Below, piece after piece: positions 3,008 to 64,000 of a stretch of DNA of 64,000 nucleotides. Below the pieces are notes generated by a model. The model ran no database searches. It had not been told where the DNA came from and saw only the letters and a list, made by a program, of their open reading frames with translations. The position numbers and the translations under genes were made by a program. The DNA lies in IMG/VR virus record IMGVR_UViG_3300047557_001498, positions 51,070 to 115,069 of that record, one strand, 5' to 3'. This DNA is from a virus. Each line of letters begins with the position of its first letter. The stretch's first letter is position 1.

Positions 3008-3023
3008 ATCGAATCAATATATT

Positions 3024-3671
3024 TTACAAATTAAGAAAACTTTTATACGAACATGATATATTTGCATTGTCTAAATAGTGTTTAAATTCTACATCCGAAT
3101 CTCTTTCTTCTGGTGTGAAATACCACGGTATATGTTTTGCCCTATAATCAACTAAACTAACACCACCGATGAATGCATCTTTTATATTGTAAACAGCAAA
3201 TGTAGTATCTATCAATACATTTATCAAACAACCTTCAAGTTCTGTTGATTGCGTTTGTCTAGATTTTTCATACGATTGTATGTGATCATAATACGGCGAA
3301 TCAATCGGAACATCGTGAAAGTCTAATGTTAAACCAACCTTACCATAATCTGGAAATTTTTCAAGAATAGATATTGATTTTGTCAAACAATCTGTTGGTG
3401 TGATTGATAAATCTAAATCAGGATCTGTTACAACATAGTAATCTGATTCTAATGAATTAACCAATCCCGAAATCCATGGTGCATGATGGCCTAAATTTTC
3501 AGTTCTAACAACTCTAATATCCGTTTCACTATACCATTCCAAAAGAGGTTCATATGTACTATCATTATCTAAAATTATTATTTCACCGACCATATCAAAC
3601 TTTGAAATGTATTCTATCATTTTTCTTGGCCATGTCAATAAGTTTCTATTATTTATTATTACTGGAATCAT
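3024..3671 (-). CDS. GT-A fold (family 2-like) glycosyltransferase
   Basis: A 215-residue protein beginning with a nucleotide-sugar-binding pattern: IPVIINNRN, then EIIILDNDSTYEPLL near residue 35, and a metal-binding DxD-like TDPDLDLS near residue 82. These are hallmarks of GT-A glycosyltransferases, and similar short enzymes are common in marine phages. It likely moves a sugar from an activated nucleotide sugar onto an acceptor that cannot be told from sequence (modified DNA base, virion protein or host glycan). Its place is odd: it separates the two halves of the DNA polymerase, 15 bases after one and 16 before the other. It shows no HNH, GIY-YIG, LAGLIDADG or Vsr-like motif, so it is not an obvious homing endonuclease. 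Confidence 0.75.
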   Translation of the reverse strand: MIPVIINNRNLLTWPRKMIEYISKFDMVGEIIILDNDSTYEPLLEWYSETDIRVVRTENLGHHAPWISGLVNSLESDYYVVTDPDLDLSITPTDCLTKSISILEKFPDYGKVGLTLDFHDVPIDSPYYDHIQSYEKSRQTQSTELEGCLINVLIDTTFAVYNIKDAFIGGVSLVDYRAKHIPWYFTPEERDSDVEFKHYLDNANISCSYKSFLNL

Positions 3672-3686
3672 TTTTTTTCCAAAAAA

Positions 3687-5453: not shown

Positions 5454-5454
5454 A

Positions 5455-6681
5455 TTAAACTCTCTTAAACATCCATATTGGTTCACAAAACTTTTTATCT
5501 CTATTCTTCTCGGCAAATTCTACACTATCATCAAGGAAATGTCCGTCTCTTGTTGCAGTTCCTGCACCGGCAGAGTTTGGTCTTTTTGACATTTCCATTC
5601 CGATACAACCGATATATTCCATTCCATTCTCTACAAGGAAATCACTCATTGGGTTTGTTATCTCTAACCATTGACGACCGGTAGACCATGCAGAGTTTGT
5701 GTAAACATCTGCAATGTTTATTGCCATAATACCACCAACTCTCAATGATGGGATGATATTACCCAATGTTTTATGTAGAAAGTTTTTATTCCATTCATCA
5801 ATACCTTTATATCGAACCCAACTTTGTGTGTCTGATTGTGAATACTTCTCAACATTAAAATATGGTGGTGATGTAAACACCAAGTCAAAGTGTTCCGGAT
5901 ATTGTGTGAAATCGAAATCTTCTGCTGGTGATGTATAAAAATTCGTTTTCTTTTTACTTTCAAAGAAACCTAAATTCTTTTCATAGAACTGTTTTTGTTC
6001 TTCATATATCGGATGATTTTCTACTCTTGGATCCAAACCAACATAATGTTCGGTACAAGATGCTGCATAAAAACCAGCAAGTCTGTCACCCCATCCCATA
6101 GAGAAATCCAATACATTCTTTACACCCAACATTTCATATAGAACTTTAGCAACATTTGGTTTAAACTGTGAACAAATGTATTTACGAAGACCTAACATGG
6201 TTCTTAATTCCGATTTACCAAGTGTTTCCATTTTGAGTGAATACATGGAACCCATTAGTGATTTCATAAACTTATGGTTAGACCATGTTCTGGCAGGACC
6301 TGGTGAAACTGATGCATCAACTTCCCAACGATTCTTTTGTTGAAAATAATTTGATGCATCGTTACCAGTATTCAAACGACTGAAATATAATTGTTTTCCC
6401 TCATATGTCAAAGCATATTTTGGTTCAGACGCCTTTCTTGGAAACCACTCACCTTCGGTTAGCAATTCATTCCAACGAATACCTTTGAGTTTTAGAAACT
6501 CTCGTTGTGCATCTTCAATAGTAATTTCAGCGTAAGGTAAAGGGTATGTCATTGCTATTTCAGCAAGACGATCCTTTACATATTCTTTATCGAAGTTTTC
6601 TTTTATGTATGTTATTTGTTCGGCAGTTATTGTTAGATACGGTTCCATACCGTAAAATTGTTGGAAGTAATCTTGTTGCAC
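5455..6681 (-). CDS. DNA methyltransferase (amino-MTase, SPPY type)
   Basis: 408 residues, probably modifying adenine-N6 or cytosine-N4 in DNA. The SAM-binding segment DFSMGWGDRLAGF lies near residues 190-202, followed by HYVGLDPR, and the catalytic FTSPPYFNVEKYS near 267-279. The C-terminus holds a conserved-looking strand (GGIMAINIADVY). It shares motif wording and order with the methylase at 1-1312. The chosen start is GTG 6681; ATG 6648 is the alternative, and neither has a strong ribosome binding site. The stop is two bases upstream of the polymerase start, suggesting coupled translation. Confidence 0.82.
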   Translation of the reverse strand: MQQDYFQQFYGMEPYLTITAEQITYIKENFDKEYVKDRLAEIAMTYPLPYAEITIEDAQREFLKLKGIRWNELLTEGEWFPRKASEPKYALTYEGKQLYFSRLNTGNDASNYFQQKNRWEVDASVSPGPARTWSNHKFMKSLMGSMYSLKMETLGKSELRTMLGLRKYICSQFKPNVAKVLYEMLGVKNVLDFSMGWGDRLAGFYAASCTEHYVGLDPRVENHPIYEEQKQFYEKNLGFFESKKKTNFYTSPAEDFDFTQYPEHFDLVFTSPPYFNVEKYSQSDTQSWVRYKGIDEWNKNFLHKTLGNIIPSLRVGGIMAINIADVYTNSAWSTGRQWLEITNPMSDFLVENGMEYIGCIGMEMSKRPNSAGAGTATRDGHFLDDSVEFAEKNRDKKFCEPIWMFKRV

Positions 6682-7983: not shown

Positions 7984-8490
7984 TCATTTTTTATCTGTTG
8001 AACCAAATCCACCATCGCCTCTATTACTATCAGACAGTTCTCGAACTTCTTCAAAATGAACGGTTGGGTATGGAATGATTATCAACTGAGCAATTTTATC
8101 GCCAACTTTTGGAACATTGTTTATCCATTCTTCATCAAATGGAAAACTTGGATATTCAAATCTAGCAAGAATTTCACCACGATAATTTGAATCAATAACT
8201 CCAACTGAATTTTTTAATGATACACCCGATAGTGCCTTTGTTATTGAGCTTCTTGGAAAAAGAAGTCCAACATAACCACTTGGAATTTCTACGGCAATAC
8301 CTGTTCCATATTCCATGAATGTTTTATCCTTTCTCAATGATGTTGCAGTTAAATCCAAACCAGCATCACCATCTTGTGCATATCGTGGTGTTACTGCTTC
8401 AGGTACTAATTTACGAAATTTTACAGTTAAATCCAAATTATTTTTGTAATTTAATTTGTAATTGGGAAACCATTTGCCAACCAAACTCAT
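7984..8490 (-). CDS. dut: dUTP pyrophosphatase (dUTPase)
   Basis: 168 residues, the normal size for the trimeric enzyme that hydrolyses dUTP to dUMP and pyrophosphate, keeping uracil out of DNA and feeding dTMP synthesis. All five family motifs are visible in order: DAGLDLTA (about 42-49), PRSSI (about 79-83), GVIDSNYRGE with the catalytic Asp (about 101-110), KIAQLII (about 133-139), and the C-terminal Gly-rich lid RGDGGFGSTDK. An AGGAGG site overlaps the end of the PLP-enzyme gene, so the two are coupled. It works with the ribonucleotide reductase at 14219-16072 in nucleotide supply. Confidence 0.97.
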   Translation of the reverse strand: MSLVGKWFPNYKLNYKNNLDLTVKFRKLVPEAVTPRYAQDGDAGLDLTATSLRKDKTFMEYGTGIAVEIPSGYVGLLFPRSSITKALSGVSLKNSVGVIDSNYRGEILARFEYPSFPFDEEWINNVPKVGDKIAQLIIIPYPTVHFEEVRELSDSNRGDGGFGSTDKK

Positions 8491-8491: not shown

Positions 8492-9241
8492 TTAACCTCC
8501 TACATTCCAAAATAATGCATCATCCGATGCGTGTTCTCTAATAAATGACCAAACTTTTGAATCGTAATAATCCGAAGATGGAAACGGTGGTTTCTCTGCG
8601 GGTTTACATTTTTGTGTGAATTTATACTTTGATACGAAGATTTCTGCCCTACCTCTCTCTCTATCGGTAGTATTGTGACCAACTCTAACACCATATATTT
8701 TTGCATCTGGCCATGCCTTCTGTAATCCCCTTGACAGAACACCTGAACTTATACATGACCAAACTTCTTTTGGTTGTATTGGAAGTGAACTCGCAATTCT
8801 AGCAACTTCATCAATAACAACAGGATGGTCAAGACCAAATGGTAATAATTGTGAACCGGGAGTTTCTACTGCATATTTTTTAGCAACGTGTTGAATGTGT
8901 GTAAGAAATCCCATAGGAACTTCTATAATGTTTGCACCAATAGAAATTGCTTCTTTGGTTAGTGGTAGATGTTTTCCTTTCGGAATGATAACTGTTGCCT
9001 TCAATCCCAAATCTCTACAAGCATAAGCAAGTGCAACTTGAGCATAGCCAACTCTCGGTGAAGCATAAACCCATTCCCTTACATGAGATTGTGATTGAAG
9101 ATAACGATATAAAAATCTTCTCTTTGTTCCACCAGGAAGTAAGTCATCACGAACTACCCAAATGTTTTCATGTTTTTCAATAACAACATCTGGTAAAGTT
9201 ACCGTAACATCTTTCGTTGGATATTGAAAGAAGTCTGACAT
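8492..9241 (-). CDS. Fold-type II PLP-dependent enzyme (ACC deaminase / threonine synthase-like)
   Basis: 249 residues, shorter than cellular members (about 330 or more). The probable Schiff-base lysine is in PGGTKRRF near residues 36-43, matching the G-x-K-x-R arrangement of the ACC deaminase/D-cysteine desulfhydrase branch. It is followed by the alpha/beta core ASPRVGYAQVALAYAC and a cofactor-loop-like GVLSRGL near residue 168. A beta-replacement or elimination reaction on an amino acid is likely, but the substrate is unknown. Phage copies could serve base hypermodification or amino acid scavenging; neither is shown here. It lies eight bases after thioredoxin and one base before dut. Confidence 0.78.
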   Translation of the reverse strand: MSDFFQYPTKDVTVTLPDVVIEKHENIWVVRDDLLPGGTKRRFLYRYLQSQSHVREWVYASPRVGYAQVALAYACRDLGLKATVIIPKGKHLPLTKEAISIGANIIEVPMGFLTHIQHVAKKYAVETPGSQLLPFGLDHPVVIDEVARIASSLPIQPKEVWSCISSGVLSRGLQKAWPDAKIYGVRVGHNTTDRERGRAEIFVSKYKFTQKCKPAEKPPFPSSDYYDSKVWSFIREHASDDALFWNVGG

Positions 9242-9541: not shown

Positions 9542-9549
9542 CAAATATA
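9542..9549 (-). promoter_or_regulatory. Host-like -7 promoter element before thioredoxin
   Basis: Coding strand TATATTTG matches the TAnnTTTG form. The -33 region is weaker here (TTGC at about 19-20 bases upstream). The leader to the ATG at 9507 would be about 30 bases. Confidence 0.5.
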
Positions 9550-9580
9550 CATATTTTTCAAATACCAAGCAAGCAATTTA

Positions 9581-12425: not shown

Positions 12426-12803
12426 TTAGAAACAACTTGTTAATAGTGCCAACTCTTTATTATTGAATTTATTTTTTGCATATAAAAGAAGTGCAATTTT
12501 AATTGATTCGGTATATTTAGTCAAGTGTTGTGCATCAACTACTAACAATGCATCTTCTTCAAATTTTTCATATTGTTTATGAATATCTTTTATTGAGTTT
12601 AATATGGCAGTATATTGTTTTTGATCTACCAATTTTGATAATTCAATTAAAGCAGATACCACATCGCCTTTTTCTGCGCAAAATTCTTTCATTTTTTTAA
12701 CAGCGTTTTCTACTTTTGTATCAACACCGTCAGTTTCTTCTTTAATGATACCGAGTAATTTTTCCGCATCTTTCATTAACTTAACTCTTGATGAAATGTT
12801 CAT
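12426..12803 (-). CDS. Helical protein of unknown function, 125 aa
   Basis: Predicted almost wholly alpha-helical from its Lys/Glu/Leu periodicity, with no signal peptide. No family recognised. A GGAGG site lies seven bases before the ATG. It follows the small membrane protein by 12 bases and precedes the 941-residue protein by 19, so the three probably share the transcript starting at 13067-13076. Confidence 0.78.
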   Translation of the reverse strand: MNISSRVKLMKDAEKLLGIIKEETDGVDTKVENAVKKMKEFCAEKGDVVSALIELSKLVDQKQYTAILNSIKDIHKQYEKFEEDALLVVDAQHLTKYTESIKIALLLYAKNKFNNKELALLTSCF

Positions 12804-12815
12804 CTTTTCCTCCGG

Positions 12816-13121: not shown

Positions 13122-13301
13122 TTATTTTTTTGCTTCTTTTGCTTCGGCAACAGATGCTTGATTATACGGTGTAATCAACTTTTTAATTGAACTTGCTGCT
13201 TTACGAGCAACAGCCGCATCTTTCTTTTTTGTTGAATTATGAGCAACTGTAAACTCATTAAATAGGTTTGTCAGTTGTTCATAAAGTTCTTGCTTAGTCA
13301 T
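13122..13301 (-). CDS. Hc1-like (histone H1-type) small basic DNA-binding protein
   Basis: A 59-residue gene found by reading the gap: ATG at 13301 with a perfect GGAGG site six bases upstream, stop TAA at 13122-13124, terminator just beyond. The protein starts MTKQELYEQL, has a Lys-rich turn (STKKKDAAVARKAASSIKKL, residues 23-42) and ends in an Ala/Lys/Glu tail (ASVAEAKEAKK). This two-helix pattern with ARKA-x-x-x-IKKL and a terminal SVxxAK tail resembles the Hc1-like histone H1 proteins of Bacteroidota and Chlamydia. It could bind and compact DNA, either host or packaged phage DNA. The family call is from memory of the pattern, not a search. Confidence 0.72.
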   Translation of the reverse strand: MTKQELYEQLTNLFNEFTVAHNSTKKKDAAVARKAASSIKKLITPYNQASVAEAKEAKK

Positions 13302-13320
13302 AGAAACCTCCTATGTAAAA

Positions 13321-20391: not shown

Positions 20392-20424
20392 ATCAAATAC
20401 TCCAAAAAAAATACTCTATTTGAA

Positions 20425-20434
20425 TATAAATATG
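20425..20434 (-). promoter_or_regulatory. Late-type promoter motif
   Basis: Coding strand CATATTTATA, 33 bases before the ATG at 20391, touching the base of the hairpin that follows uvsX. Confidence 0.55.
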
Positions 20435-20455
20435 GGGATAAACAAATTTACCCCC
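20434..20455 (-). terminator. Hairpin after uvsX (probable terminator)
   Basis: Coding-strand stem GGGGGTAAA with TTTATCCCC (one G-U pair), loop TTTG. The T tract is weak because the next bases are the promoter motif ATATTTATA, so one AT-rich segment may serve both purposes. Confidence 0.6.
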
Positions 20456-20462
20456 AATAAAA

Positions 20463-21611
20463 TTATACTTCATCTTGTAGTAATGGTTCATCTGAAAGAG
20501 TTACATCATCGATTCTGGCTTCATCCAATTTCTTGTATTTCATAATTACCTTATCAGCAATTTCATCATATACTATATCGTATAATTCAGCATCACTCAT
20601 AATCTTTTCAACAAATTCTTTGGATTGAAATTTGATAACTTCTCCAGAACGTTTGTCTGTCCATGAATACCAAGCACCAGATTGAGATACAAGGTTGTGT
20701 TCTTTCATAACAGTAAGCCAACTACTGTAATCATCAATACCACTATCAAAGTAAACCTCATATTCACACTCTCTCAATGGAGGACCACAACGATTTTTAA
20801 CTAACTTTGCCTTAACTCTCGAACCAACAATTTCATCACGACCTTCTCTCTTTGCCTTGATGGCACCGATTGAAGACAGACGAAGACGAACAGATGCATG
20901 GAAAGGAATACCTTTACCACCAGGTGTTGTCCAAGGATCAGAGAATGCTGGGGCATTCAATTTCTGACGAAGTTGGTTTGTGATAATCAAACAAATACGC
21001 TCTCTACCGATAAGATTTGTAATCTTTCTCATTGCCTTTGAAATGATAAGTGCCTTTGCCGTAGCATAACCATCCTTATCAAAATCTGCAGCCATTTCTG
21101 TTTTAGTGGATGCACCGGCGATTGAATCAATTACAATAGTTACCAGTCTATCTTTATCGGATGAACGAACTTTGTCAATGATAACATCAACTGTTTCAAA
21201 AATATCTTCTACGGTTTCCAATGGAATGTATAACATATCTTTTAAGTTCAAACCGATTGCAGTTAGATATTCGGTAGCAATAGCATTCTCGGTATCAATA
21301 TAAACTGCAAGACCACCTTTCTTTTGTGTGTTTAGAAGTGCATGGGCTGCCAATAGAGATTTACCAGATTGTTCGAGACCTGTTATTTCAGATACACGAC
21401 CAACAGGAAAACCACCATACTTACGATTGGAAATAGCCAAATCCAACATGGTTGAGCCAGTTCCTACCCATTCTTTTACTATCGTAGGTGCATCACTATC
21501 ACCTTCAAGAAAGTAAGCGGTCTTAACATTTTGTGTTTTGAATTGTTTATTTATAGTTTCGGCAATGACTCCACCGAGTTCATCGGATAAATCACTTTTT
21601 GATTTTGCCAT
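20463..21611 (-). CDS. uvsX: RecA/UvsX-family recombinase
   Basis: 382 residues (T4 UvsX has 391). It coats ssDNA and carries out strand exchange in recombination-dependent replication and repair. Walker A GLEQSGKS is at 78-85, the Walker B-like LVTIVIDSIAGAS near 158, and the DNA-binding loop region TNQLRQKLNAPAFSD with a Gly-rich PGGKGIPFHAS beyond it. The acidic C-terminus (SDEPLLQDEV) is typical. An AAGGG site precedes the ATG, and it follows gp32 by 13 bases, so the two share the promoter at 22451-22482. Confidence 0.95.
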   Translation of the reverse strand: MAKSKSDLSDELGGVIAETINKQFKTQNVKTAYFLEGDSDAPTIVKEWVGTGSTMLDLAISNRKYGGFPVGRVSEITGLEQSGKSLLAAHALLNTQKKGGLAVYIDTENAIATEYLTAIGLNLKDMLYIPLETVEDIFETVDVIIDKVRSSDKDRLVTIVIDSIAGASTKTEMAADFDKDGYATAKALIISKAMRKITNLIGRERICLIITNQLRQKLNAPAFSDPWTTPGGKGIPFHASVRLRLSSIGAIKAKREGRDEIVGSRVKAKLVKNRCGPPLRECEYEVYFDSGIDDYSSWLTVMKEHNLVSQSGAWYSWTDKRSGEVIKFQSKEFVEKIMSDAELYDIVYDEIADKVIMKYKKLDEARIDDVTLSDEPLLQDEV

Positions 21612-21624
21612 AAAACACCCTTAA

Positions 21625-22386
21625 TTAAAATAAGTCATCAAATGTAACACCAATATCATCGGTAGATGTAGCTGGTGTTTCTGATTTTGTTTCTTTCTTT
21701 TCTTCTTTGTAATTGAGATCTTCAGCAGGTTCATCTGATTTACCCAACCATGTTTGTAATTGAATTTTCAATTCATCATAAGTTGGTTCAGGATAAAGTT
21801 CTGTGATTTTGGATTGTTCTTTTATTTTTTCAATAACCGATTGATCCTCTGTTACTACCGTTTCTTTTGGTTTGATTCTGATTGTTGTTTCTGCATAATC
21901 TCTGCCAGTTTCTTCTGGTGATTTTACAGTTACAACAATATCTCTACCGGTTTTCAAATCAGATAAATCACCGTAATCAGGATCAGCAAAGAAACCAAGA
22001 AGTTCTTGATAAAGTTGTTTACCAAATCCCCAAAACTTTACACCTTCATTTTCTTGTCCACGAATGATAACAGGAACATAAACTCTCATTTTTGGTTCAA
22101 GTTTTCTACCCATAATCCAATCACTCTTATCGCCAGTTTGTTTCAGTTTTTCTGCAAAGTCTACGATTGGATCAGGTCTACCAAAAGACACAGGTGAAAG
22201 AATTGAACGCTTACCGAGATTGTAGTGAAAATACATTTCTAAAAATGGATTCTCTCTGTTATGGATATAAGGAACAATACGGATTTGGTGTTCACCGGGT
22301 TCGGGTTTCCAAAGATTAGATGTGCGATTGTTTGTGTTTTTTAAAGAGTTCAAACGACTCTTGATTGCATCTAAGTTAATACTCAC
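21625..22386 (-). CDS. gp32: Single-stranded DNA-binding protein (gp32-like)
   Basis: 253 residues (T4 gp32 has 301). The N-terminus is a LAST-like basic helix (SRLNSLKNT). The core opens W-x-P-x-x-G-x-H-x-I-R-I-V-P near 26-40, the familiar start of the gp32 OB fold. The zinc-binding Cys/His set of T4 is not evident. The tail (residues 225-253) is acidic and Ser/Thr-rich, ending DDIGVTFDDLF, the protein-protein interaction tail. The start codon is GTG at 22386, with an AGGAG site eight bases upstream. It protects ssDNA and organises UvsX, helicase and polymerase. Confidence 0.93.
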   Translation of the reverse strand: MSINLDAIKSRLNSLKNTNNRTSNLWKPEPGEHQIRIVPYIHNRENPFLEMYFHYNLGKRSILSPVSFGRPDPIVDFAEKLKQTGDKSDWIMGRKLEPKMRVYVPVIIRGQENEGVKFWGFGKQLYQELLGFFADPDYGDLSDLKTGRDIVVTVKSPEETGRDYAETTIRIKPKETVVTEDQSVIEKIKEQSKITELYPEPTYDELKIQLQTWLGKSDEPAEDLNYKEEKKETKSETPATSTDDIGVTFDDLF

Positions 22387-30660: not shown

Positions 30661-30993
30661 TCACCTCCGGGTATTGTAATCAAATAACAATGAAGATATA
30701 CCGTCCATTGTTTCATACGGTATAGTTATCGGTATTCCTTTTGGAACGGCAAGTGTCCCCTTTCCTAAATTATTTGCCCTAGCAATAACAAACCAAAGTC
30801 TTTCGTCACCATAAAATTCTTTTGCAAGTAAATCTAATCTATCACCATCTTGTGTTGTTATTACCGTCCCATTTCCAGATCTGATAAAACTTGGATATAA
30901 CGTTGTTGATTTTCTTCTAACGGTTCTTTCTGTTCCATCCGAATCTATTTTTTTAGCATCTTTTATTGTATATGTGTATTCATATCTATTCAT
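30661..30993 (-). CDS. LysM-domain baseplate protein (gp53-like)
   Basis: 110 residues. A strand-rich start is followed by a LysM domain at about residues 44-95: VITTQDGDRLDLLAKEFYG, then LWFVIARANNL and a closing PKGIPITIP. T4 gp53, a baseplate wedge protein, and many short tail proteins have this layout, where LysM serves assembly or peptidoglycan contact. An AAGGA site and a late-type motif at 31016-31025 precede it. Its stop is one base before the hub start, so both are translated together. Confidence 0.85.
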   Translation of the reverse strand: MNRYEYTYTIKDAKKIDSDGTERTVRRKSTTLYPSFIRSGNGTVITTQDGDRLDLLAKEFYGDERLWFVIARANNLGKGTLAVPKGIPITIPYETMDGISSLLFDYNTRR

Positions 30994-45752: not shown

Positions 45753-46241
45753 TTAGTATTGTAGAATAGCATAATCGTAGGCGAGTGTGAGAGAAATCTC
45801 AACAAACGCATCGTTTGCCCAATCCATTTCACCAAATGTTGTTGCAGTGATGAATGCACCTTTCAATGTCCATTCTTCAACCTTATCACCAACAGGACCG
45901 AGTGTATGTAATGTAATATCCTTTTTGTAAAAATCAGAATAACCATCACGACCCGTTACAGATTCGTGTGAAAGACGTACCCACTCCATGACTGCCTGTG
46001 CACCCGATGGAACTACTGGGTCATATAGTTTAATTGTAACATCCTGCCATTCCCCTTTACCTTTCACTTTACGATATACGTTGATGTGGTCTAACTTAAT
46101 TGGGTTAAAGTTGATGTTCGGTCTTCCCGCACCCTTTACCAACCAAGCAGGTACACCTTCGATGTACATGATAAAGCGATTTTGTAGTTTAGGCTCGAAG
46201 GGGGTAAAAAATATCTCATTCGAGTTAATCAGTTCAGCCAT
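45753..46241 (-). CDS. gp19: Tail tube protein (gp19-like)
   Basis: 162 residues, matching T4 gp19 (163). The text MAELINSNEIFFTPFEPK, then RFIMYIEGVPAWLVKGAGRP, and the ending strand VEISLTLAYDYAILQY follow the known pattern of contractile-tail tube proteins. It polymerises as hexamer rings under the sheath. GGAGA site and late-type motif upstream; separated from the sheath gene by a terminator, so tube and sheath are transcribed as separate units. Confidence 0.93.
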   Translation of the reverse strand: MAELINSNEIFFTPFEPKLQNRFIMYIEGVPAWLVKGAGRPNINFNPIKLDHINVYRKVKGKGEWQDVTIKLYDPVVPSGAQAVMEWVRLSHESVTGRDGYSDFYKKDITLHTLGPVGDKVEEWTLKGAFITATTFGEMDWANDAFVEISLTLAYDYAILQY

Positions 46242-53176: not shown

Positions 53177-53866
53177 TTATGCAAGAGCAGCAATTTCTTT
53201 TGATAAAAATTGAACAACTTCACCACTCTTTATTGCGGCGATTGCTCCCTCCATCGCACCTAATGTTGATATTCCGGCTTTAACGGCATTGAATCCGGAA
53301 TAAACTGCAAGACCTGCTATAATCAATGTAAAAACTATCTCTGCAACCTTTTCTTGTGTTTTATTATCTGCATTTCTAAACGATGGAACTGCTAACAATG
53401 CAATTCTTACTATCTTAACATAAACATGGTGCATTTTTTCTGCACTTGTTCTTAAAAATTCTGCAATTTTTGATTTATCACCACCACCTAATTTTTTCAC
53501 CAATTTTTCTATTAGTGTTGCAGTTATTTCAGCTATTTTTGGAAGTGCAAGTGCAAGGCTGAGAAAAAATACAGTATCAACTTCGTTTATATTTTTCTTT
53601 TTCGATTCTGATTTTTTTAATTTACCTTCAACTACCTTTGCCAAATCTGGCGCTTTTCGTAAAGCCATTTTTATCTGTTCTTTATCATTCTGTAATTTTT
53701 CAAGATCTGATGTTTTTGACTTCATATCCCCAACCATTGATTTTAAAATAGATTCAAAATCATTTTCCATTTTATCAGACTCACCTTCTTCTTTGAGAAT
53801 CTGTCTCTTTATTTCCAAAAGAATCAAGTCTTCTAATTTTCTGTTCATAGAACTATTTTTTTTCAT
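53177..53866 (-). CDS. Hydrophobic helical protein next to capsid gene, unknown function
   Basis: 229 residues. The first 95 are charged and helical, then come hydrophobic segments near 98-122 (VFFLSLALALPKIAEITATL), 150-165 and 175-200 (VFTLIIAGLAVYSGFNAV), ending in an Ala/Gly-rich amphipathic part. It may insert in membrane or be a head-internal protein. It forms its own unit: promoter motif 53900-53909, GGAG site, terminator 53126-53153. Confidence 0.75.
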   Translation of the reverse strand: MKKNSSMNRKLEDLILLEIKRQILKEEGESDKMENDFESILKSMVGDMKSKTSDLEKLQNDKEQIKMALRKAPDLAKVVEGKLKKSESKKKNINEVDTVFFLSLALALPKIAEITATLIEKLVKKLGGGDKSKIAEFLRTSAEKMHHVYVKIVRIALLAVPSFRNADNKTQEKVAEIVFTLIIAGLAVYSGFNAVKAGISTLGAMEGAIAAIKSGEVVQFLSKEIAALA

Positions 53867-53971: not shown

Positions 53972-55609
53972 TTAGATGTCACCGAGAGAATCAATTTGGA
54001 TAAGACCATAGAACTCTGGACGAACAATCTTCTTAGCATAACGAGTCATCACGCCTTTTCTTGGTGTGAAGTTCGTTGGGTCGTATACCAATGGTGTCAT
54101 TACGAGTGGAATATATGGAGCATACACGGCACCAGTTTCAAGGAACTGAGCACCACGGAAACCAACAAGAATTTGGTTTTCGAGCATATAAGGATTCTTA
54201 TAGACTGTGATACGACCATTCAACTGACCAACTTTTTGAACACCCATTGCAAATTTCATACCTTCACCATCAACTGCATAGCCAGGCATTGATTCAAGAA
54301 GTGTAGCAACTTGTGGAGAACATACGAGGAAGTTTGCACCACCACGAAGTGTTTTCTGATGAATTACGTTTGATACTTTTTGAATCTTTGTACCGAGTGT
54401 TTGGAACCATGTTTGTTGATTAAACGCAGAAGCAGCAGCTTGAGCGGTTGAATAATCATCAAATACGCCATTAGCAGCATCATAAGTACGGCCGATACGT
54501 GCAGACCATCTTTCTGTTGTTTGTGCATTCTTAATCAACATATCAAGAATTTCAAGGTCAATTTCTTGTGAAATATATTCTGACAACATTGATGTCAATT
54601 CAGCTTCTGCATCGATTGAGTGGTATGCATTCAAATCTTGTGCAAATTCAGGTGTCCATACTGCCTTCAACTTACGTGTTTTAGCAACGATAGATTCTGA
54701 ACGCAATTCGAGATTGATTTCAGGAATGTCAAGATTTGAACCTTTATCTTCAAAATCACCACGATTGTATGCAAGTGGTTGCTTAGAATATTTAACAACC
54801 AAGTTATCACCAGTTGTACCTGTTTTTCTACCAACAAATGTTATTGTAGAATCATCATTTGCAACTGTTGTATATTGTGGGAAATATTCAGCAAGGTTTG
54901 TTGCAGTAACGGTAAATGCACGAACTGCCTCAAAATCTACATCTTCTAAAGAAGCAGCAGAAACAGTAATTGTAATAATATTCCCTGCAGCCAAAGCAGT
55001 TGCGTATGCATTTTCAAATTCTGTATCATGTTGATAAAGACTTGGTGAAGCTGTTGTAACTGAACCTGTTTTGTATGTTGTTGCATTTACACTTGCACCT
55101 AAATCCAATTCAGCGGATGCAGCTTCGTTAATGGAATAACCAAAACGACCTGCACCATAAAGACCGCCTTCAGGATCAGCATCTTTGGCTTCTTTACCAG
55201 TAACACCGAATACAGAATCAGCTTGTGTTGTTCTACCTGCATTTGCTGTAAATCCAGGTTGACTTGTACCATATTTGAAATCTAGATAGAATACAAGACC
55301 GGAAGGCAAGTTCATTGGTTGAACAGAAACAAAATCTTTCGCAGCAATTTCAGAGAAAATACGGCGAACCAATGGAAGTGCAACACCTGCCCATTCTTCT
55401 GAACCGGCTGCTGTACCTGTACGGTTTGATTCATCAATAAGTTGTTTTGCCTGATTTTCGAGAAGAACTGCAATAGAGTTCTTTTCGTAATCGCTTGATA
55501 AGTTGTCAAGAAGACCTGATTTTTCCCACTTCTTAACAACACCTTTATTTTCTTCGATAAGACGCTTATGAGGGTTATTGGTAGCGCCTAAAAGTGATTG
55601 TATACTCAT
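53972..55609 (-). CDS. gp23: Major capsid protein (gp23-like)
   Basis: 545 residues (T4 gp23 has 521). The N-terminal helical region (1-65) is the likely propeptide removed by gp21. Then AGSEEWAGVALPLVRRIFSE (mature N-terminal arm), SVQPMNLPSGLVFYLDF, a Thr/Ser-rich insertion (about 190-280, with an Ig-like strand pattern), and TRKLKAVWTPEFAQDLNAYH with NFLVCSPQVATLLESMPG in the HK97-fold core. AAGGA site; ends at a very strong terminator, which fits high expression of a single product. Confidence 0.96.
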   Translation of the reverse strand: MSIQSLLGATNNPHKRLIEENKGVVKKWEKSGLLDNLSSDYEKNSIAVLLENQAKQLIDESNRTGTAAGSEEWAGVALPLVRRIFSEIAAKDFVSVQPMNLPSGLVFYLDFKYGTSQPGFTANAGRTTQADSVFGVTGKEAKDADPEGGLYGAGRFGYSINEAASAELDLGASVNATTYKTGSVTTASPSLYQHDTEFENAYATALAAGNIITITVSAASLEDVDFEAVRAFTVTATNLAEYFPQYTTVANDDSTITFVGRKTGTTGDNLVVKYSKQPLAYNRGDFEDKGSNLDIPEINLELRSESIVAKTRKLKAVWTPEFAQDLNAYHSIDAEAELTSMLSEYISQEIDLEILDMLIKNAQTTERWSARIGRTYDAANGVFDDYSTAQAAASAFNQQTWFQTLGTKIQKVSNVIHQKTLRGGANFLVCSPQVATLLESMPGYAVDGEGMKFAMGVQKVGQLNGRITVYKNPYMLENQILVGFRGAQFLETGAVYAPYIPLVMTPLVYDPTNFTPRKGVMTRYAKKIVRPEFYGLIQIDSLGDI

Positions 55610-55627: not shown

Positions 55628-56740
55628 TTATTTTAAACCTGCTAATTTACGTAAACGATTCGCCATGTTATCACCTTCATTGATGATTGTTTTTGGACGA
55701 GTGCTTGCAATCGGTTTGCTTGCAAATGACTCTTTCAATGGTTTAGCATTTATCTTAGCAGATTTTAATGCCTCTGAAAGGGTTGCATATACCAATTTAA
55801 CTTCACGCAAGCTGGAAGCACGATCAAAGTTTTCAATGACCGTAATTTTTTGTTTCTCTGTCAATGAATGTTTCTTGAACAATTTGTTTGAGAATAACAA
55901 CTTAGAGTTCAAAAGATTGACTTCGTTGATTTTAGAACGTAAGAAAGTAATAACTGCATATGCCTCACGGAGTTTAGCTTCAGCCATTTCTTTTTCTTTT
56001 TCTTCTTCAGCTTCATCAACTTTCTCATCTTCATCTTCTTCACGAAGAGCACGAAGTATCTCTTTAATATCTACTGTGTCTTCATCTTCTTCCGCTTCTT
56101 CTACCTTTTCTTTTTCACCTTCTTCATCTTCTTCACGAATTGAACGCATCATTTCTTTGATGTCTTCATCTTCTTCGTCTTCTTCGTTTACAAGTTGAAC
56201 AAGTTTTTCTTTCTTGTCTTCGGTAGAATCATCAGAAGCAACTGGTGATGGTTTTTTATTATCGCCTGTACCAATGCCGGATGAATCAATGTCTTCTTCT
56301 AATTGACGTATGATTTCCATTAAATCTTCGTCAATTTCTTCTTCTTCATCTGCCTCATCCATTGCATATTCTTTTGTAGGTTCTTCGGCTTCTTCATCAT
56401 CAGCTTCACCAAACAATTCTTCAATGTCAATGTCATCTTCAGCCGTGTCTACTGACTTTTCTTCTGTGTGGTCTTCTTCTCCTTCGCCTTCTTCCATAGC
56501 GGGTTCTTCATCATCTGTTTCTGACATGGAACCTGGTTCTTCTTCAAACCAATCGTTACCATAATCTTCTTCAACAGATTTTTCTTCTTCTTCACCCTCT
56601 GCTTCTTCAGCGAGTTTTTGAGACAACATAGATTGAAGTCTAGGTGTCATAGCTTCTTCTAAAGCAAGTTTCGCATTTGCAAGTGCAATTTCACGAACTG
56701 CTTTAGCATCGGCTATTGCCTCTTTGAGTAAATCATTCAT
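55628..56740 (-). CDS. gp22: Prohead core scaffold protein (gp22-like)
   Basis: 370 residues, extremely acidic between about 45 and 240. An N-terminal helix (MNDLLKEAIADAKAVREIAL) and a C-terminal helical, Lys-containing part (KLREAYAVITFLRSKINEVN onward) flank the acidic core. Within it a motif recurs: DLMEIIRQLEED, DIKEMMRSIREED, DIKEILRALREED. Position between gp21/bS21 and gp23 is the T4 gp22 place. The scaffold is expected to be digested by gp21. ATG 56740 is chosen over the upstream ATG because GGAGA lies next to it. Confidence 0.85.
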   Translation of the reverse strand: MNDLLKEAIADAKAVREIALANAKLALEEAMTPRLQSMLSQKLAEEAEGEEEEKSVEEDYGNDWFEEEPGSMSETDDEEPAMEEGEGEEDHTEEKSVDTAEDDIDIEELFGEADDEEAEEPTKEYAMDEADEEEEIDEDLMEIIRQLEEDIDSSGIGTGDNKKPSPVASDDSTEDKKEKLVQLVNEEDEEDEDIKEMMRSIREEDEEGEKEKVEEAEEDEDTVDIKEILRALREEDEDEKVDEAEEEKEKEMAEAKLREAYAVITFLRSKINEVNLLNSKLLFSNKLFKKHSLTEKQKITVIENFDRASSLREVKLVYATLSEALKSAKINAKPLKESFASKPIASTRPKTIINEGDNMANRLRKLAGLK

Positions 56741-56852
56741 TAGAAATCTCCAACTTTTTGGCGTTATTATGAACCCCAATCAACATAAAAAAATTACAAA
56801 CCCCATATATTAAGATGTTATTGGATTCTTAATGTAGGATAGGGTATTATTG

Positions 56853-56862
56853 TATAAATATA
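56853..56862 (-). promoter_or_regulatory. Late-type promoter motif, long leader
   Basis: Coding strand TATATTTATA, 112 bases before the gp22 ATG at 56740. The leader contains a six-base-pair inverted repeat (TTAAGA/TCTTAA, about 56809-56831) and a possible 17-codon upstream frame overlapping the gp22 start; neither is well supported. Confidence 0.5.
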
Positions 56863-56874: not shown

Positions 56875-57102
56875 TTATATGTTTTCTTCGTCTAATTTTT
56901 TTTGTCTTCTTACGGCAGCATTTCGTTTTTCTACCTTTCTTTTTGATGGTTTTATGTATTCCATCTTCTTCTTATATTCTTCTAATATACCTGATTCTTT
57001 GACTTTACGTTTAAAAATTTTAATCATAACGTCAATATTCATTCCGTTTCCCTTTACTTTAACATGAGCCGGTTTTGATGATGTATAAACTCTGTCTGAC
57101 AT
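56875..57102 (-). CDS. rpsU: Ribosomal protein bS21 homologue
   Basis: 75 residues, bS21 size. From about residue 12 the text follows bS21: a short strand (HVKVKGNGMNIDVMIK), then IFKRKVKESGILEEYKKKM, and a basic tail (KPSKRKVEKRNAAVRRQKK). bS21 sits on the 30S platform near the 3' end of 16S rRNA and affects mRNA selection. Phage copies are known from some pelagiphages and large phages. Here it is in the head gene block, between the DUF3008-like gene and the scaffold, with an AAAGG site, so it would be made late together with capsid proteins. Confidence 0.85.
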   Translation of the reverse strand: MSDRVYTSSKPAHVKVKGNGMNIDVMIKIFKRKVKESGILEEYKKKMEYIKPSKRKVEKRNAAVRRQKKLDEENI

Positions 57103-57114
57103 AACCTTTATTCC

Positions 57115-57726
57115 TTATTTATCGTTTAAATTATTATTTTGTTTTATTTCATAAAATCTACCAAGATGATTTCCAATTCCATCATAAATCGACTCTAATC
57201 TTCTTTGTAATTTTACAATTCTCTCCGATACTCTATGAAATTCTTTCAATGATTCACGGATTTGTTTTGATTTTCTGTTATATGATACGCCTTCGAACCA
57301 ATCACCAGATTCTTCTACTATATTTCTATTAGCAAACTCAACTATTGCCGTTATTTTACTAACCGCCTCTGGTAATGCTTTAGATCGGTGAATTATTTCT
57401 CTATATTCATTGTAATTAGATACCGCTTCTTTGAATTGTTGTTTTTGTTCTGGTGTTAGGTGTTTTGTGTTAAATCTTTCCTGCATAACTTCTTCAACAG
57501 CATCTTGAACCATTCTTTTTAAGTCTTCTACTTTAATTTTTGTTTCACCGACCTTCTTTGGAAGACCTTTATGTTTGGTTGATGCAAATTTTTCTAATTC
57601 TTTCTCGGACATACCACTTGCTATCTTTTTTATCGTAGGACTTACCTCTGATGGAGATACATTTCCTCTCTTGTATGCAAGTGCTAAGCCCATTATTTTC
57701 TGTTGTTGTTGTGATAACGCAGGCAT
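57115..57726 (-). CDS. DUF3008-like protein with helical C-terminal extension
   Basis: 203 residues. Residues 1-57 (MPALSQQQQKIMGLALAYKR, then SEKELEKFASTKHKGLP) match the DUF3008 type: a small Gln-rich start and the SEKELEKFAxTKHKGLP ending, seen in many phages and bacteria without known function. The remaining 145 residues are helical with coiled-coil character (VSERIVKLQRRLESIYDGIG). It starts two bases after gp21 with a GGGAGA site, so a role in head assembly is plausible. Confidence 0.78.
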   Translation of the reverse strand: MPALSQQQQKIMGLALAYKRGNVSPSEVSPTIKKIASGMSEKELEKFASTKHKGLPKKVGETKIKVEDLKRMVQDAVEEVMQERFNTKHLTPEQKQQFKEAVSNYNEYREIIHRSKALPEAVSKITAIVEFANRNIVEESGDWFEGVSYNRKSKQIRESLKEFHRVSERIVKLQRRLESIYDGIGNHLGRFYEIKQNNNLNDK

Positions 57727-57728: not shown

Positions 57729-58385
57729 TTATCTCCCATCAAATATACATTCACAAACATTTCCAATTTCACAAATTATGTTTGTTATGTTGTTGTTAAT
57801 ACGTTTAATTTTAGGATCAATTTTGGATATAGTCGAAAGTGATACGCCTTCTGAAATGAATCCTTCATTTTTTGATGTTGGGTACATAAATGCACCATGT
57901 GTAGACGGATTTGATACAAAATCCCACCCTATTAACTCAAAATCATCTTGAACTTGAACAACACCCTCACTAATTTCTTCTACCGATCCCATACCCCTTG
58001 AACTTATACCCAATCTTATTCCACATTTCAATAATTCTTTTAATATATTACCGGCAGGAGTTGGTAAAATCTCAACAACACCGACAACATCATTTCCTTT
58101 CCACTTAACTTCAAGTACATTGTGTGAAACATTTTTTAAATTTATTACAGATGATTCTGGATGGTCTAATTCCCCTAATGCCCTTCTTTCTTTTACGTTA
58201 GTATCTGCATATTTTTTTACTTCTCTCATCAAAATCTCTTTCGGATATACTCTACCGTTTTGATTTTTTGCCTCTGCACGTTGTAAAACCCCACTAACAA
58301 CAACTTTACCACTACCATCAATACTTTCGTTCAGATTTGGTGTGTTTAAATTAAATAAAATCGTGTCTATCAGTAGTTCTTTCAT
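57729..58385 (-). CDS. gp21: Prohead maturation protease (gp21-like)
   Basis: 218 residues (T4 gp21 has 212). The serine-protease signature of the herpesvirus/T4 prohead family is visible: VVVSGVLQRAEAKNQNGRVY near 28-47, the catalytic His in GELDHPESS (His75), and the Ser in GIRLGISSRG (Ser128 or Ser129). It digests the scaffold and trims gp23. ATG 58385 is used; an in-frame GTG three codons upstream lies inside the previous gene. Confidence 0.94.
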   Translation of the reverse strand: MKELLIDTILFNLNTPNLNESIDGSGKVVVSGVLQRAEAKNQNGRVYPKEILMREVKKYADTNVKERRALGELDHPESSVINLKNVSHNVLEVKWKGNDVVGVVEILPTPAGNILKELLKCGIRLGISSRGMGSVEEISEGVVQVQDDFELIGWDFVSNPSTHGAFMYPTSKNEGFISEGVSLSTISKIDPKIKRINNNITNIICEIGNVCECIFDGR

Positions 58386-58386
58386 C

Positions 58387-58890
58387 TTATGCACCTAATT
58401 CGTGAATTTTTTTAGTAATTCTGTTTATTCTTTCTGATATTTTTCTCAATCTATTCATTGATTCACCCCAAAGAGTTCTTTGATCAACATTCATTTCTGT
58501 TTTTAATTTGAGTGCATGTTCAACTACTCTTTCAACTTCATAGATTGTTCTGTTTATATTCTTAATTGAATCATTTATTTTTCTATTACTACTACGAGTT
58601 TCGTCTTTACGAAATTCTTTGTATGTTCCTTCATGTATAACATTCATTGCTTGTTTATATGAAGACTCGAAATTTTTCTTTTTTTGTTTTGGTACAACAG
58701 AATATCCTTGTACTTCTGCATTATCCTTGCTTGTTTTTTCAAAATCACTTTCACTTGGTGAAAATGCATTAGGGGTTTGGTAACCTGGTACAGCAGCAGT
58801 TGTACTCATTTCATCAAGTTCAATTTCTTCCTTAAATTTTCTATAATCTTCGGATTCTTGTATTTGCTTTATGAAAGATTGTATATTCAT
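58387..58890 (-). CDS. Head-region protein with conserved EMSTTAAVPGYQTPNAF motif
   Basis: 167 residues. A stretch at about 27-43 (EMSTTAAVPGYQTPNAFS) is of a type that recurs in marine T4-like phage proteins coded near the prohead genes. The C-terminal 70 residues are a coiled coil (IYEVERVVEHALKLKTEMN, then RLRKISERINRITKKI). Function unknown. It overlaps nothing but ends one base before the gp21 start and shares helical C-terminal style with the protein at 57115. Confidence 0.75.
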   Translation of the reverse strand: MNIQSFIKQIQESEDYRKFKEEIELDEMSTTAAVPGYQTPNAFSPSESDFEKTSKDNAEVQGYSVVPKQKKKNFESSYKQAMNVIHEGTYKEFRKDETRSSNRKINDSIKNINRTIYEVERVVEHALKLKTEMNVDQRTLWGESMNRLRKISERINRITKKIHELGA

Positions 58891-60106: not shown

Positions 60107-61987
60107 TCATAATTCATCCAATAAATTGTCCTCATTTAGTAAATTTGGTTCATTTTCTTCGGAAATTTTTGTTGATTTTAGACTTTCCGATATAATTTTT
60201 TTAGTTTTTACCTTAACACCAGCCATATCACTAATCAATCGTTCCATATCTTTTTTCATTTTTTTACTTTCAGTTGATAGTGGACTACTTTTTTTGTAAT
60301 CATGTTTAGATGATTGGTTTACTTTTAATGTATTTCCAACATCCTTTTTACCGATAGGATCTCTGCCAAACGGACTATCATCGGTTGAATATGATAAATT
60401 CTTAGCAGGTCTTCCTGCACCTGGCCAACCTCCTTCTGGAACATCAACATCATTTATCATTTTACCACCACCCTTTACGTGCATACTTGCAATATCATGT
60501 GGTGTTCCAAATGATTCCTTTGTTATTGCAGGATCATTCCCTTCACTTTCGATTTGTGTTTGACGGAACTTGTGTTTAATATCTTCAAGTATTTCATTCT
60601 TTTCAAATTCTGCCTGGTCATCTGTCAGATTGAATATATTAGAATAAATGTATTTCAAAGAGAATAATTTATTTTCAATAAGTTGTGATGCCAAATCAAC
60701 TCTCTCTTTCATAAGAGCAACTTTTTCTTGTTCGTATACAATAGATGGACTTGTTAAATTTAACTCAAAATTAACAAGGTCTGCGTTTTCATATCCTTGT
60801 GAATAAAGATGAACAATAGCAATCTTCGTCAATTCTGATAAAACTATTCTTTGTATTCTCTCTATTGTTCTTGCAAAACGAATATCAAGAGCAGCAAGAG
60901 TTGCCTTCCCTTCTGTTGTTTCATCATATCCCAAAAATGCCTTTGGTATTTTTAACGCAGCAAATATTTTACTTTTAAGATACTCCACATCTTCTATTGC
61001 CTGATATTGTAATCCAGGAAGTGTTTCTATATTTGTTGCAGATTGTGAGCCACGAACAGGAAGATAATAGTCTTCCAAAAGATTTTGCATATTAAAACGA
61101 AGATTATATTGACCAGTCTTTTCATCAACGATTGGTACTTTTTTCATTTTGTTCATCATCGATTGTATGTATTGATCAACTTCACCAGGTGGTATGTTTC
61201 CAATATCAACTTTAAAGACTCTCTTTTCCGGAGCACGCATAATACGATGTATCAACATCGCATCTTCCATAAGAACTAATTGTTTGTAAAGTTTACGAGC
61301 ACCTTCTAACATAGATTTACCATAAGGTAAAAAGTTTGTATCACCCATTAAACGAAAATGTGCAATTTCATAATTTTGAAATTCACCCTTCCCAAGAGGT
61401 CCTTCATAAATAAATTTTGTCATGTAAATATGTTCGGGATCAGTTCCTTCTTCTCTTTGCATTTCATATGGTGAAAAGGGAACAACATTTGTTACACCCA
61501 ATCCCTCTTTCACATCAAGATATAGATAGAAGTCACCATATTTACAAAGATTACGAACCCAAGGCCATAGATTGTATTCTATATTAAGAATATCGTAAAA
61601 AAGATTATGAAGAATTTTACGAATATTATCGTTGTCAGTTCTAATGGTTAGAACATCGCCGGTATCGTTTTTAAGAGTGCTTTCATCGGAATAGATGTCA
61701 AGTGCAGATGAAACAATGGCATCGGTGTCCATTGCTTCATAATCAGTATAAAGGTCTATTTTTGTAGCAGAAAAAGAATTGTATTGATTGTATACGGATA
61801 TTGGGGTTCCTCTTGAACCATGTAATCTTCCATATCTATCAACAACTTTCGATGTATGTGGGTTTCCGTCTGCCTGATAACGGGCTGTATCAACAACCTT
61901 TAATCTTTTACCGCCAACATTTCTTACAACAACATTGGTAGAAAAAAGCGTTTTCAATCTATCAAACAAAGATTTTCTTTCTGCCAT
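60107..61987 (-). CDS. gp20: Portal protein (gp20-like)
   Basis: 626 residues (T4 gp20 has 524). The core is recognisable: YNSFSATKIDLYTDYEAMDT, then ALDIYSDESTL, IMRAPEKRVFKVDIGNIPPG, KMKKVPIVDEKTGQYN, and DVEYLKSKIFAALKIPKAFL. It forms the dodecameric ring at the packaging vertex and binds terminase and neck. The last 130 residues are polar, low-complexity and lie beyond the T4 length. AGGTGA site before the ATG; late-type motif at 62019-62028. Confidence 0.95.
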   Translation of the reverse strand: MAERKSLFDRLKTLFSTNVVVRNVGGKRLKVVDTARYQADGNPHTSKVVDRYGRLHGSRGTPISVYNQYNSFSATKIDLYTDYEAMDTDAIVSSALDIYSDESTLKNDTGDVLTIRTDNDNIRKILHNLFYDILNIEYNLWPWVRNLCKYGDFYLYLDVKEGLGVTNVVPFSPYEMQREEGTDPEHIYMTKFIYEGPLGKGEFQNYEIAHFRLMGDTNFLPYGKSMLEGARKLYKQLVLMEDAMLIHRIMRAPEKRVFKVDIGNIPPGEVDQYIQSMMNKMKKVPIVDEKTGQYNLRFNMQNLLEDYYLPVRGSQSATNIETLPGLQYQAIEDVEYLKSKIFAALKIPKAFLGYDETTEGKATLAALDIRFARTIERIQRIVLSELTKIAIVHLYSQGYENADLVNFELNLTSPSIVYEQEKVALMKERVDLASQLIENKLFSLKYIYSNIFNLTDDQAEFEKNEILEDIKHKFRQTQIESEGNDPAITKESFGTPHDIASMHVKGGGKMINDVDVPEGGWPGAGRPAKNLSYSTDDSPFGRDPIGKKDVGNTLKVNQSSKHDYKKSSPLSTESKKMKKDMERLISDMAGVKVKTKKIISESLKSTKISEENEPNLLNEDNLLDEL

Positions 61988-62045: not shown

Positions 62046-63632
62046 TTACTTTATTAACCAAGTTAAATCTTCATCATTTCCTCTAACTTGCATAGACCAA
62101 CCATCATCAAATTGATTTTGAGTTGTTGATTGGATTTGACCACCTTTACCGATGTAATCCAAACTCATACGAGTTCTCATCAATCCTTCTTGACGTAATT
62201 TTATTGCAGTATCTCTAACCCAAAGTCCTATTGCAAATGACATAACCAAATCATCGTTATATCCAGTTTGTGCTTCTGCCTTTGAACCATTCCAAACAAA
62301 TACAAAAAGTTCTTCAACTAATCTGGATGATTTTATTATTGGTGATCTTTCACGAAAATAAGTTTCCAATTTAGAAACAAGAAGTGGTCTAGTTTTTGCA
62401 CTTGTTGTAAATCCAGGAACCATTTGTGATTTGTCTTTAATATCATATCCTTTCGGAATATGTACTGATGGATCAATGTACCCATCTTCACGGTAAGTGT
62501 AATATAAATTATGATAACCTCTATCTATCACTTGTTGAATTACCGCCCAACCAACATTGGCATTTTCAATAACTAACATTGCATCGTTATATTCTGTTGC
62601 AACAGATACTAACATATTACCGTATGATTTTGTATCAAGTTTACCCTTATATTCAGCAACTTGTTCCAGATTATCAACATCTATTACATGAAATGCCGAA
62701 TTATCATTTCCATCACCACGAGCAACGTCAGCTACAACAATATATGTCTTTGAAGGATCTGGATATTCCCATATCCAATAAGCATCCTCTGATCCTCTTT
62801 TTTCTTTTGGCTCACACACATAAGTTTCTTGATACCATTGAACCAATTCACCATCAATAACAGAACGACCGGACGATAGAAAGTTTCCATCACATTCTTG
62901 TTTTGCCATATCTGGACCCAAAAGAATATCTTGTTCATCACGCCATTTTTGGTCACGGTCAGGATGAACTTGCCATAATAATTCTATCGGATTAAATGAA
63001 CTTTCACCGAGTTTTGCCTTTACCCATTGTTTGTGATAAAAATTACCGATACCATTTGGTGTAGAGTTTATTATTGCAGTTCCACCAGTTGCAAGTGTTT
63101 GTTGTGCAGATGCCCATATTTTATCTATATCATCAATAAAGGCGGCCTCATCTATAATCAAAAGTGAAAGTGCTTCAGAACGGGCAGAGTCAGCGGCAGC
63201 AGAAACGGCTTTAATTTGTGAACCGTTTTTAAAACGAAGTGAAAGTTTATTATCTTCTTGAACACCAGTCTTTAACCAACTCGGTAGATTGTCATACATA
63301 ACACGAACTTTTGTAACCAAGTTTTTTGCAGTTTCTTGTTTCGTAGCAATAACAAGAATATTTTTATCTTGATTGAATAACATTAACCAAAGTGAATATC
63401 CAGCAATAAGTGTGGAAATACCTAACTGACGAGACTTTAGAACAATGTTCCATCTATTATTGTTAAATTCTTTTAGTACATCTTCTTGAAACGGATATAA
63501 TTCAAAAAGAATTTTGCCACGAGTTGGGTGTTGAATCTTTGCATATCTTTTCATAAAGTAGATAGGATTACTTGCACACTTTGCAAATTCTTCTTTTATT
63601 ATGTCTTTAAGATTTTTAGTAACTTGACTCAT
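62046..63632 (-). CDS. gp17: Terminase large subunit (gp17-like)
   Basis: 528 residues (T4 gp17 has 610). The packaging ATPase has Walker A-like SRQLGIST (67-74), Walker B LLIIDEAAF near 157-165, and coupling motif INSTPNGIGNFYHK. The nuclease domain begins with YIVVADVARGDGNDNSAFH near 303-321 and keeps further acidic residues (LVIENANVGW, then NDDLVMSFAIG). It pumps DNA into the prohead and cuts the concatemer. ATG 63632 overlaps the previous gene's stop (ATGA); a longer frame start lies inside that gene. No small terminase is in the window. Confidence 0.96.
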   Translation of the reverse strand: MSQVTKNLKDIIKEEFAKCASNPIYFMKRYAKIQHPTRGKILFELYPFQEDVLKEFNNNRWNIVLKSRQLGISTLIAGYSLWLMLFNQDKNILVIATKQETAKNLVTKVRVMYDNLPSWLKTGVQEDNKLSLRFKNGSQIKAVSAAADSARSEALSLLIIDEAAFIDDIDKIWASAQQTLATGGTAIINSTPNGIGNFYHKQWVKAKLGESSFNPIELLWQVHPDRDQKWRDEQDILLGPDMAKQECDGNFLSSGRSVIDGELVQWYQETYVCEPKEKRGSEDAYWIWEYPDPSKTYIVVADVARGDGNDNSAFHVIDVDNLEQVAEYKGKLDTKSYGNMLVSVATEYNDAMLVIENANVGWAVIQQVIDRGYHNLYYTYREDGYIDPSVHIPKGYDIKDKSQMVPGFTTSAKTRPLLVSKLETYFRERSPIIKSSRLVEELFVFVWNGSKAEAQTGYNDDLVMSFAIGLWVRDTAIKLRQEGLMRTRMSLDYIGKGGQIQSTTQNQFDDGWSMQVRGNDEDLTWLIK

Positions 63633-64000
63633 TGTACCACTAAAATTATTCCAACAACAGAAGCTGCTCCGGTTAAGAACCATAAAAATTTATTATCGTA
63701 CCAACGTGGTTGTAGTTCTTGATTTATTTTTTCAAGTTCTTCACTTCTTTTTTTACAAGCAGCAAGTGCTTCATCACGGTTTTTTAATTGCTGTATAAAC
63801 ATTTCAGATCTAGAAACATATAAATTTATTACAGTATCTTGCACATTAACAACAGAAGTAAGATATTCGACTGAATCTCGTATGAGTTGAATTTTATTCC
63901 ACAATTTAGTTACTTCGGGTTTTGTAAAACAAATTAGGGAATCTTTTTCGGAAGCAAAGGTCATTGAAAAGGAAAATAATAATGCTATAACGTACTTCAT
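63629..64000 (-). CDS. Exported/membrane coiled-coil protein upstream of terminase
   Basis: 123 residues, ATG at the last bases of the window. Residues 1-17 look like a signal peptide (KYVIALLFSFSMTFASEK, likely cut after Ala-Ser), followed by a helical coiled coil (RDEALAACKKRSEELEKINQ) and a C-terminal transmembrane helix (FLWFLTGAASVVGIILVV). Such a layout places the coiled coil in the periplasm. Size and coiled coil resemble spanin-type lysis proteins, though those have an N-terminal anchor. The start could in principle lie further upstream, but the signal peptide argues it is complete. Confidence 0.75.
   Translation of the reverse strand: MKYVIALLFSFSMTFASEKDSLICFTKPEVTKLWNKIQLIRDSVEYLTSVVNVQDTVINLYVSRSEMFIQQLKNRDEALAACKKRSEELEKINQELQPRWYDNKFLWFLTGAASVVGIILVVQ

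Follow-up and report, generated by a model that had tools for sequence, protein, structure and literature searches.

An N-terminally extended ribosomal protein bS21 in the head gene cluster of a lake phage and its association with Shine-Dalgarno sites in related genomes

The window analysed here is the right end (64 kb) of a linear IMG/VR virus contig of 115,069 bases (lake phage). It carries a gene for ribosomal protein bS21 among capsid genes, as the preliminary description had proposed, and this head cluster is T4-like, with the surrounding head genes on the same minus strand (Table 1). The homologous major capsid protein (MCP) and terminase large subunit (TerL), together with the gene order, place this phage in the immutovirus-like T4-type capsid lineage. 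The spacing between bS21 and the gene upstream of it, for which no function is known, is conserved in the family (mostly 3–19 nt) and the two genes are probably cotranscribed and coupled. For the scaffold-like gene on the other side of bS21 a PHROG search gave no match.

Table 1. Features of the window discussed in the text (SD, Shine-Dalgarno site)
Feature	Position	Strand	Basis or remark
AGGAGG SD of gene 7984–8490	8496..8501	-	sequence
Bacteroidota-type promoter TTG-N20-TATATTTG	9542..9572	-	consensus from PMC6847099
GGAGG SD of gene 12426–12803	12809..12813	-	sequence
AGGAGG SD of gene 13122–13301	13307..13312	-	sequence
GGAGG SD before ATG at 30659	30664..30668	-	long ORF ends at 26742
Major capsid protein (MCP, major head protein)	53972..55609	-	phrog_138, E=5e-75
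Scaffold-like gene, between bS21 and capsid gene	55628..56779	-	position and synteny with Mel-JY01 and immuto
Candidate late promoter TATATTTATA	56853..56862	-	just downstream of bS21, before scaffold-like gene
bS21 gene	56875..57102	-	75 aa, 11-residue N-terminal extension; PF01165, translation, alignments, AF2
SD-like AGGA of bS21 gene	57112..57115	-	sequence; AAGGA in fuller form
Head-cluster gene of no known function	57115..57726	-	PHROG matches of unknown function; ends 12 nt before bS21
Head maturation protease	57729..58394	-	phrog_207, E=7e-53
Portal protein	60107..61987	-	phrog_213, E=1e-67
Terminase large subunit (TerL)	62046..63683	-	phrog_2, E=7.5e-51

The open reading frame is a real bS21 of family PF01165, which it matches with an E-value of 5.8e-14 and 49.1 bits (curated cut-off 27), and it also matches 25 solved bS21-type chains, the best ones being proteobacterial bS21s. 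The AlphaFold (AF2) model, of modest confidence (mean pLDDT 71.5, pTM 0.32), shows the usual three helices (23–37, 39–47 and 54–74) and a disordered N-terminus. The core of the protein is strongly conserved in the alignment. An Arg aligns at the position of Tyr54 of the Flavobacterium johnsoniae protein, and comparison at this anti-SD contact, which had been suggested earlier, revealed a non-aromatic residue in all the window-family sequences seen in the alignments. A scan of genome contigs for a close cellular source turned up a single contig, phage-like and binned as Rickettsiales, and therefore no recent capture of bS21 from a host is visible. Contig L092, in a Rickettsiales genome bin, looks like phage DNA and encodes an N-extended bS21 beside Hsp20- and ClpS-like genes.

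The preliminary description had also pointed to many clear SD sites next to bS21. The sites themselves are real, and the one before 13301 is likewise a full AGGAGG, but the four genes cited sit 26–48 kb from bS21 and do not adjoin it. One of these sites precedes the ATG at 30659, where the long ORF probably begins. The sites near bS21 are moderate: GGGAG (-9.3 kcal/mol) before 57726, in the immediate neighbour, GGAG at the scaffold-like gene, and AAGGA at the capsid gene as well as at bS21 itself. Genome-wide scoring bore out the abundance of SDs, with a 4-mer SD in 44% of the ATG genes of this phage versus 8–9% of its shuffled leaders and 3% of internal control positions; as longest-ORF starts were used, some true sites, e.g. 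that of the ATG at 30659, are missed in this count. With the same ab initio gene caller used for all genomes, the value was 55% for T4, 5% and 3% for the Flavobacterium phages immuto and FCL-2, and 7% for Cellulophaga phi38:1. Across clade A, to which this phage belongs, the sites show a sharp peak between -12 and -9. They precede 63% of the early plus-strand genes of this phage versus 39% of its late genes. Thus, the idea that the late position of bS21 would time its effect with capsid production fails for this phage, whose SDs are spread over the genome and are strongest in early genes.

Among annotated relatives, Mel-JY01 (PP395634; TerL 66% and MCP 70% identical), recorded from Microcystis, comes closest, followed by immuto, isolated on Flavobacterium (MCP 54.5% identical by tblastn and 60% over the alignment; TerL 55% and 57%, respectively); Rhodothermus phage RM378 is more distant. 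The Bacteroidota sigma-ABfr consensus is TTTG/TANNTTTG (PMC6847099). Promoters of this type point to the host independently of translation. Intergenic regions of this phage contain TTG-N18-21-TANNTTTG five times in sense and never in antisense orientation (0.4 in shuffled sequence), and those of Mel-JY01 15 times and once (0.5 shuffled). The sense/antisense counts in the other long clade A genomes were 5/0, 13/3, 4/2 and 3/0; none was found in the 74-kb clade A contig G020, and TATAAT showed no enrichment in intergenic regions of clade A genomes. The immuto promoters have the form TTGCAT...GTATCTTTA with the TTG placed 23 nt upstream in 8/8 sites, a spacing that recurs in clade A (22–23 nt in 19/24 promoter sites). 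In Mel-JY01 (PP395634.1; L086, L089, L091), TTGCATA-N-CGTATATTTG promoters of Bacteroidota type are seen and the phage groups with Flavobacterium phages; to judge from its sequence, the recorded cyanobacterial host is doubtful and may be wrong.

Given the promoter type and a Flavobacterium phage as the closest securely hosted relative, the host of this phage is likely of Bacteroidota type. This part of the earlier proposal agrees with the promoters and the closest cultured relatives, while the Microcystis record of Mel-JY01 runs against it. Matches of GroEL or RmlD were tried as indicators of host phylum but say nothing on it, given the Proteobacteria bias of plasmid records. Bacteroidia ribosomes ignore SDs. 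Bacterial classes of the Bacteroidia type have about 0.1–2% SD genes, and Ignavibacteria average 32% (PMC10783764). The latter value and the Microcystis record are in line with the main rival explanation, that the clade A host (for example a cyanobacterium, or an Ignavibacteria-like bacterium related to Bacteroidota) reads SDs normally, with phage SD use simply following the host, and bS21 has some other purpose; the spread of clade A SDs over the whole genome, early genes included, would fit as well. The intergenic sigma-ABfr-type promoters with the TTG spacing of immuto, and the missing TATAAT enrichment, do not, and together with the data on the sister clades given below they make an SD-reading host unlikely on the whole.

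Other promoter-like elements were noted in this group of phages. In early-region genes of contig L082 (4984–14199), TATATTTG lies 31–51 nt before the start codon, several copies having TTG at -33. The same motif occurs in many relatives 21 nt before the gene upstream of bS21, where it overlaps codons of the protease and forms a candidate early bS21 promoter, with no TTG at the usual spacing. The candidate late promoter motif ATATTTAT is found in clade A regions 81 times in sense and 3 times in antisense orientation (7.2 shuffled), and many late genes of the clade are preceded by ATATTTAT(A) at about 40 nt (in the window, for example, 45753–46241, 53177–53866 and that of the portal protein). 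The T4-type late promoter TATAAATA is absent in the clade, which has ATATTTATA in its place. In clade C, promoter-like GTATATT stands no more than about 15 nt from the start codon of some replication genes (G008–G010), which suggests very short leaders or leaderless mRNAs.

Capsid-protein scans yielded 156 new contigs, about 50 of which have bS21 at the same place and strand, and an MCP tree of 113 rows was built from this lineage, a set of metagenomic contigs without proven hosts and with gene starts called ab initio. SD use tracks bS21 across the tree, which supports the earlier proposal: 41 of the 43 phages with bS21 use SDs and 2 do not, while among the 70 without bS21 only 3 do and 67 do not. 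The three exceptions of the latter kind (L180, L170, L234) are contigs cut off near the bS21 position or before reaching it, and the two of the former (L166, L168) encode a short bS21 without the N-terminal extension. The F. johnsoniae-like phage bS21s (L251–271) are equally without N-extension and without SD use. SDs were used in 39/39 measured cases with an N-extension of at least 10 residues, a criterion chosen, like the clade grouping, after seeing the data; L164 seems to use SDs without it. A rule by which loss of Tyr54 would mark SD use was rejected, as clade B bS21s keep Tyr at this position and yet go with SDs. Therefore, the N-extension or other changes must matter in clade B.

Phages without bS21 and without SD use (L110/111/114, L122, L143–L161) are nested among those having bS21, and the two traits vanish together in at least three such subclades. 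Independent pairs gave 4 cases in the same direction, 0 in the opposite one and 2 without difference (sign test p=0.125), and with only 4–6 independent transitions this test cannot reach significance. This small number leaves some room for an extraribosomal or packaging role of bS21 in the head cluster, its link with SDs being one of descent only, and the gene is indeed always found inside that cluster, near the protease and scaffold genes. We consider such a role very improbable in view of the conserved bS21 core and of the joint losses in the nested subclades.

Clades B and C, two sister clades that carry bS21, allow a comparison within single genomes, genes being sorted into late and other ones through homologous structural or replication anchors. 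In their long contigs the SDs cluster in a stretch of 30–40 kb that surrounds the head and tail genes, and they are rare elsewhere. They are found in 0.57 of the late versus 0.16 of the other genes in clade C (Fisher p=2.9e-11; energies p=2e-8) and in 0.50 versus 0.23 in clade B (Fisher p=3.8e-4; energies p=6e-6), with higher late use in 7/7 genomes. Operon-internal genes also have SDs (46–48%), and the signal is therefore not merely a leader or promoter motif. Since host and genome are constant within each phage, host SD preference alone cannot explain this late-restricted use. The bS21 gene itself, amid SD-rich neighbours, has an SD in none of the 24 distinct clade B/C leaders; the corresponding figure for clade A is 45 of 50 distinct leaders. 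In genomes lacking bS21 (grouped with G014, which has a short bS21 and no SD) the 4-mer occurs in 0.15 of the late versus 0.04 of the other genes (p=0.014), an excess that is not accompanied by stronger pairing, and late-gene pairing energies of sister phages without bS21 are near zero.

That small excess, and the very high expression of capsid genes, would agree with a weak SD effect in the hosts of clades B and C for which the most highly expressed genes are selected, while bS21 would only supply ribosome capacity late in infection and leave SD reading as it is. This explanation is improbable, as it leaves aside that the sisters lacking bS21 are essentially without SDs in late genes and that the bS21 gene, presumably highly expressed too, is SD-less in every clade B/C leader. 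A host that reads SDs normally likewise leaves these clades unexplained, with early genes largely SD-less and late genes bearing SDs in one genome, and does not tell why the presence of bS21 follows SD use. The within-genome contrast favours an N-extended phage bS21 that makes SD-blind ribosomes read SDs.

In F. johnsoniae, bS21, bS18 and bS6 hold the 16S 3' tail, and a template with a strong SD gave a 3- to 5-fold higher yield when bS21 carried the substitution Y54A or a C-terminal truncation (PMC9976891). The bS21 of pelagiphage HTVC008M enters E. coli ribosomes (PMC6375957). From these data and the genome comparisons we infer that the N-terminally extended phage bS21 would enter the host small subunit and replace the host protein, which in a Bacteroidota-type host would normally help to hold the tail (anti-SD) in a pocket. 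The tail would then be free to pair, and SD-bearing phage mRNAs would initiate better than SD-less host mRNAs. For this release of the anti-SD by a bS21 swap, the best explanation at hand, the arguments on either side weigh about the same. Against it stand the early genes of this phage, which have the strongest SDs and are presumably translated before the late bS21 is made, and the one published in vitro test, where E. coli ribosomes translated less in the presence of a phage bS21 (PMC6375957). In clade A, bS21 may be made early or be carried in the virion, or the host may read SDs by itself. In the sister clades the swap could act as a late switch: unmodified ribosomes would make bS21 from its SD-less leader, and the SDs, mainly on late structural genes, would be read after the switch; in clade A the sites would have spread to the whole genome. 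This fuller scheme, a viral translation switch that makes an SD-blind ribosome able to read SDs by means of a gene itself lacking an SD, and that is genome-wide in clade A, is put forward tentatively, as a possibility slightly short of evenly balanced.

As an idea, redirection of late translation toward phage mRNA by a phage bS21 has already been published (PMC9723584, PMC6375957, PMC9976891). In the consulted text of Chen 2022 (PMC9723584), phages of clades a–e have bS21 in the TerL/portal/protease/MCP region, as here, and a Bacteroidetes host and redirection of late translation were proposed; SD scoring of phage genes does not appear in that text. According to the same text, their bS21 is encoded opposite to the structural genes and always keeps an aromatic residue at Tyr54, whereas the window and its relatives have the gene on the same strand as those genes, the window protein is N-extended with Arg at that position, and its family is non-aromatic there; the complete genomes measure 293–331 kb, and the record analysed here is a 115-kb linear contig that may be incomplete. 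Immuto (Immutovirus, MW353175) shares with this phage the capsid lineage, the gene order and TTG...GTAnnTTT promoters with the same TTG spacing, but no bS21 was found in it and its SD frequency equals that of shuffled leaders. Mel-JY01 uses SDs, has promoters of Bacteroidota type and encodes, at the corresponding locus, a bS21 of 51% identity; it differs in its weaker SD use outside the structural cluster and in its recorded cyanobacterial host. As in the scheme proposed here, the state of bS21 decides on the reading of SD mRNAs in the anti-SD occlusion and rpsU autoregulation of F. johnsoniae, where, however, it is loss of the host bS21 that frees the anti-SD (PMC9976891). HTVC008M has a proteobacterial host, and an SD link was not part of that study (PMC6375957). 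Literature searches (open-licence papers, no preprints) returned no report of SD use tracking phage bS21, of late-enriched SDs, or of an SD-less bS21 amid late genes with SDs.

Ribosomal protein bS21 is by far the commonest one carried by phages (PMC9976891, PMC6375957). If the SD link is true, phages would alter, in the middle of infection, the rule by which the host ribosome selects start sites, and SD use would allow this strategy to be recognised in virus genomes.

Several observations concern other genes. DNA polymerase B, encoded by a single gene (848 aa) in Mel-JY01, looks split in the window (2093–5516) into ORFs 3687–5516 and 2093–3007, which flank an ORF of 215 aa. One phage has two partial genes resembling N6/N4 DNA methylases (window 5455–6681 and L084 9693–10808). 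A phage GroEL is encoded at 401–2029 of L083 (record 20401–22029), preceded by a 99-aa ORF of GroES size, and two large adjoining proteins with RCC1-type repeats (L083 5761–10625) are perhaps tail or adhesin proteins.
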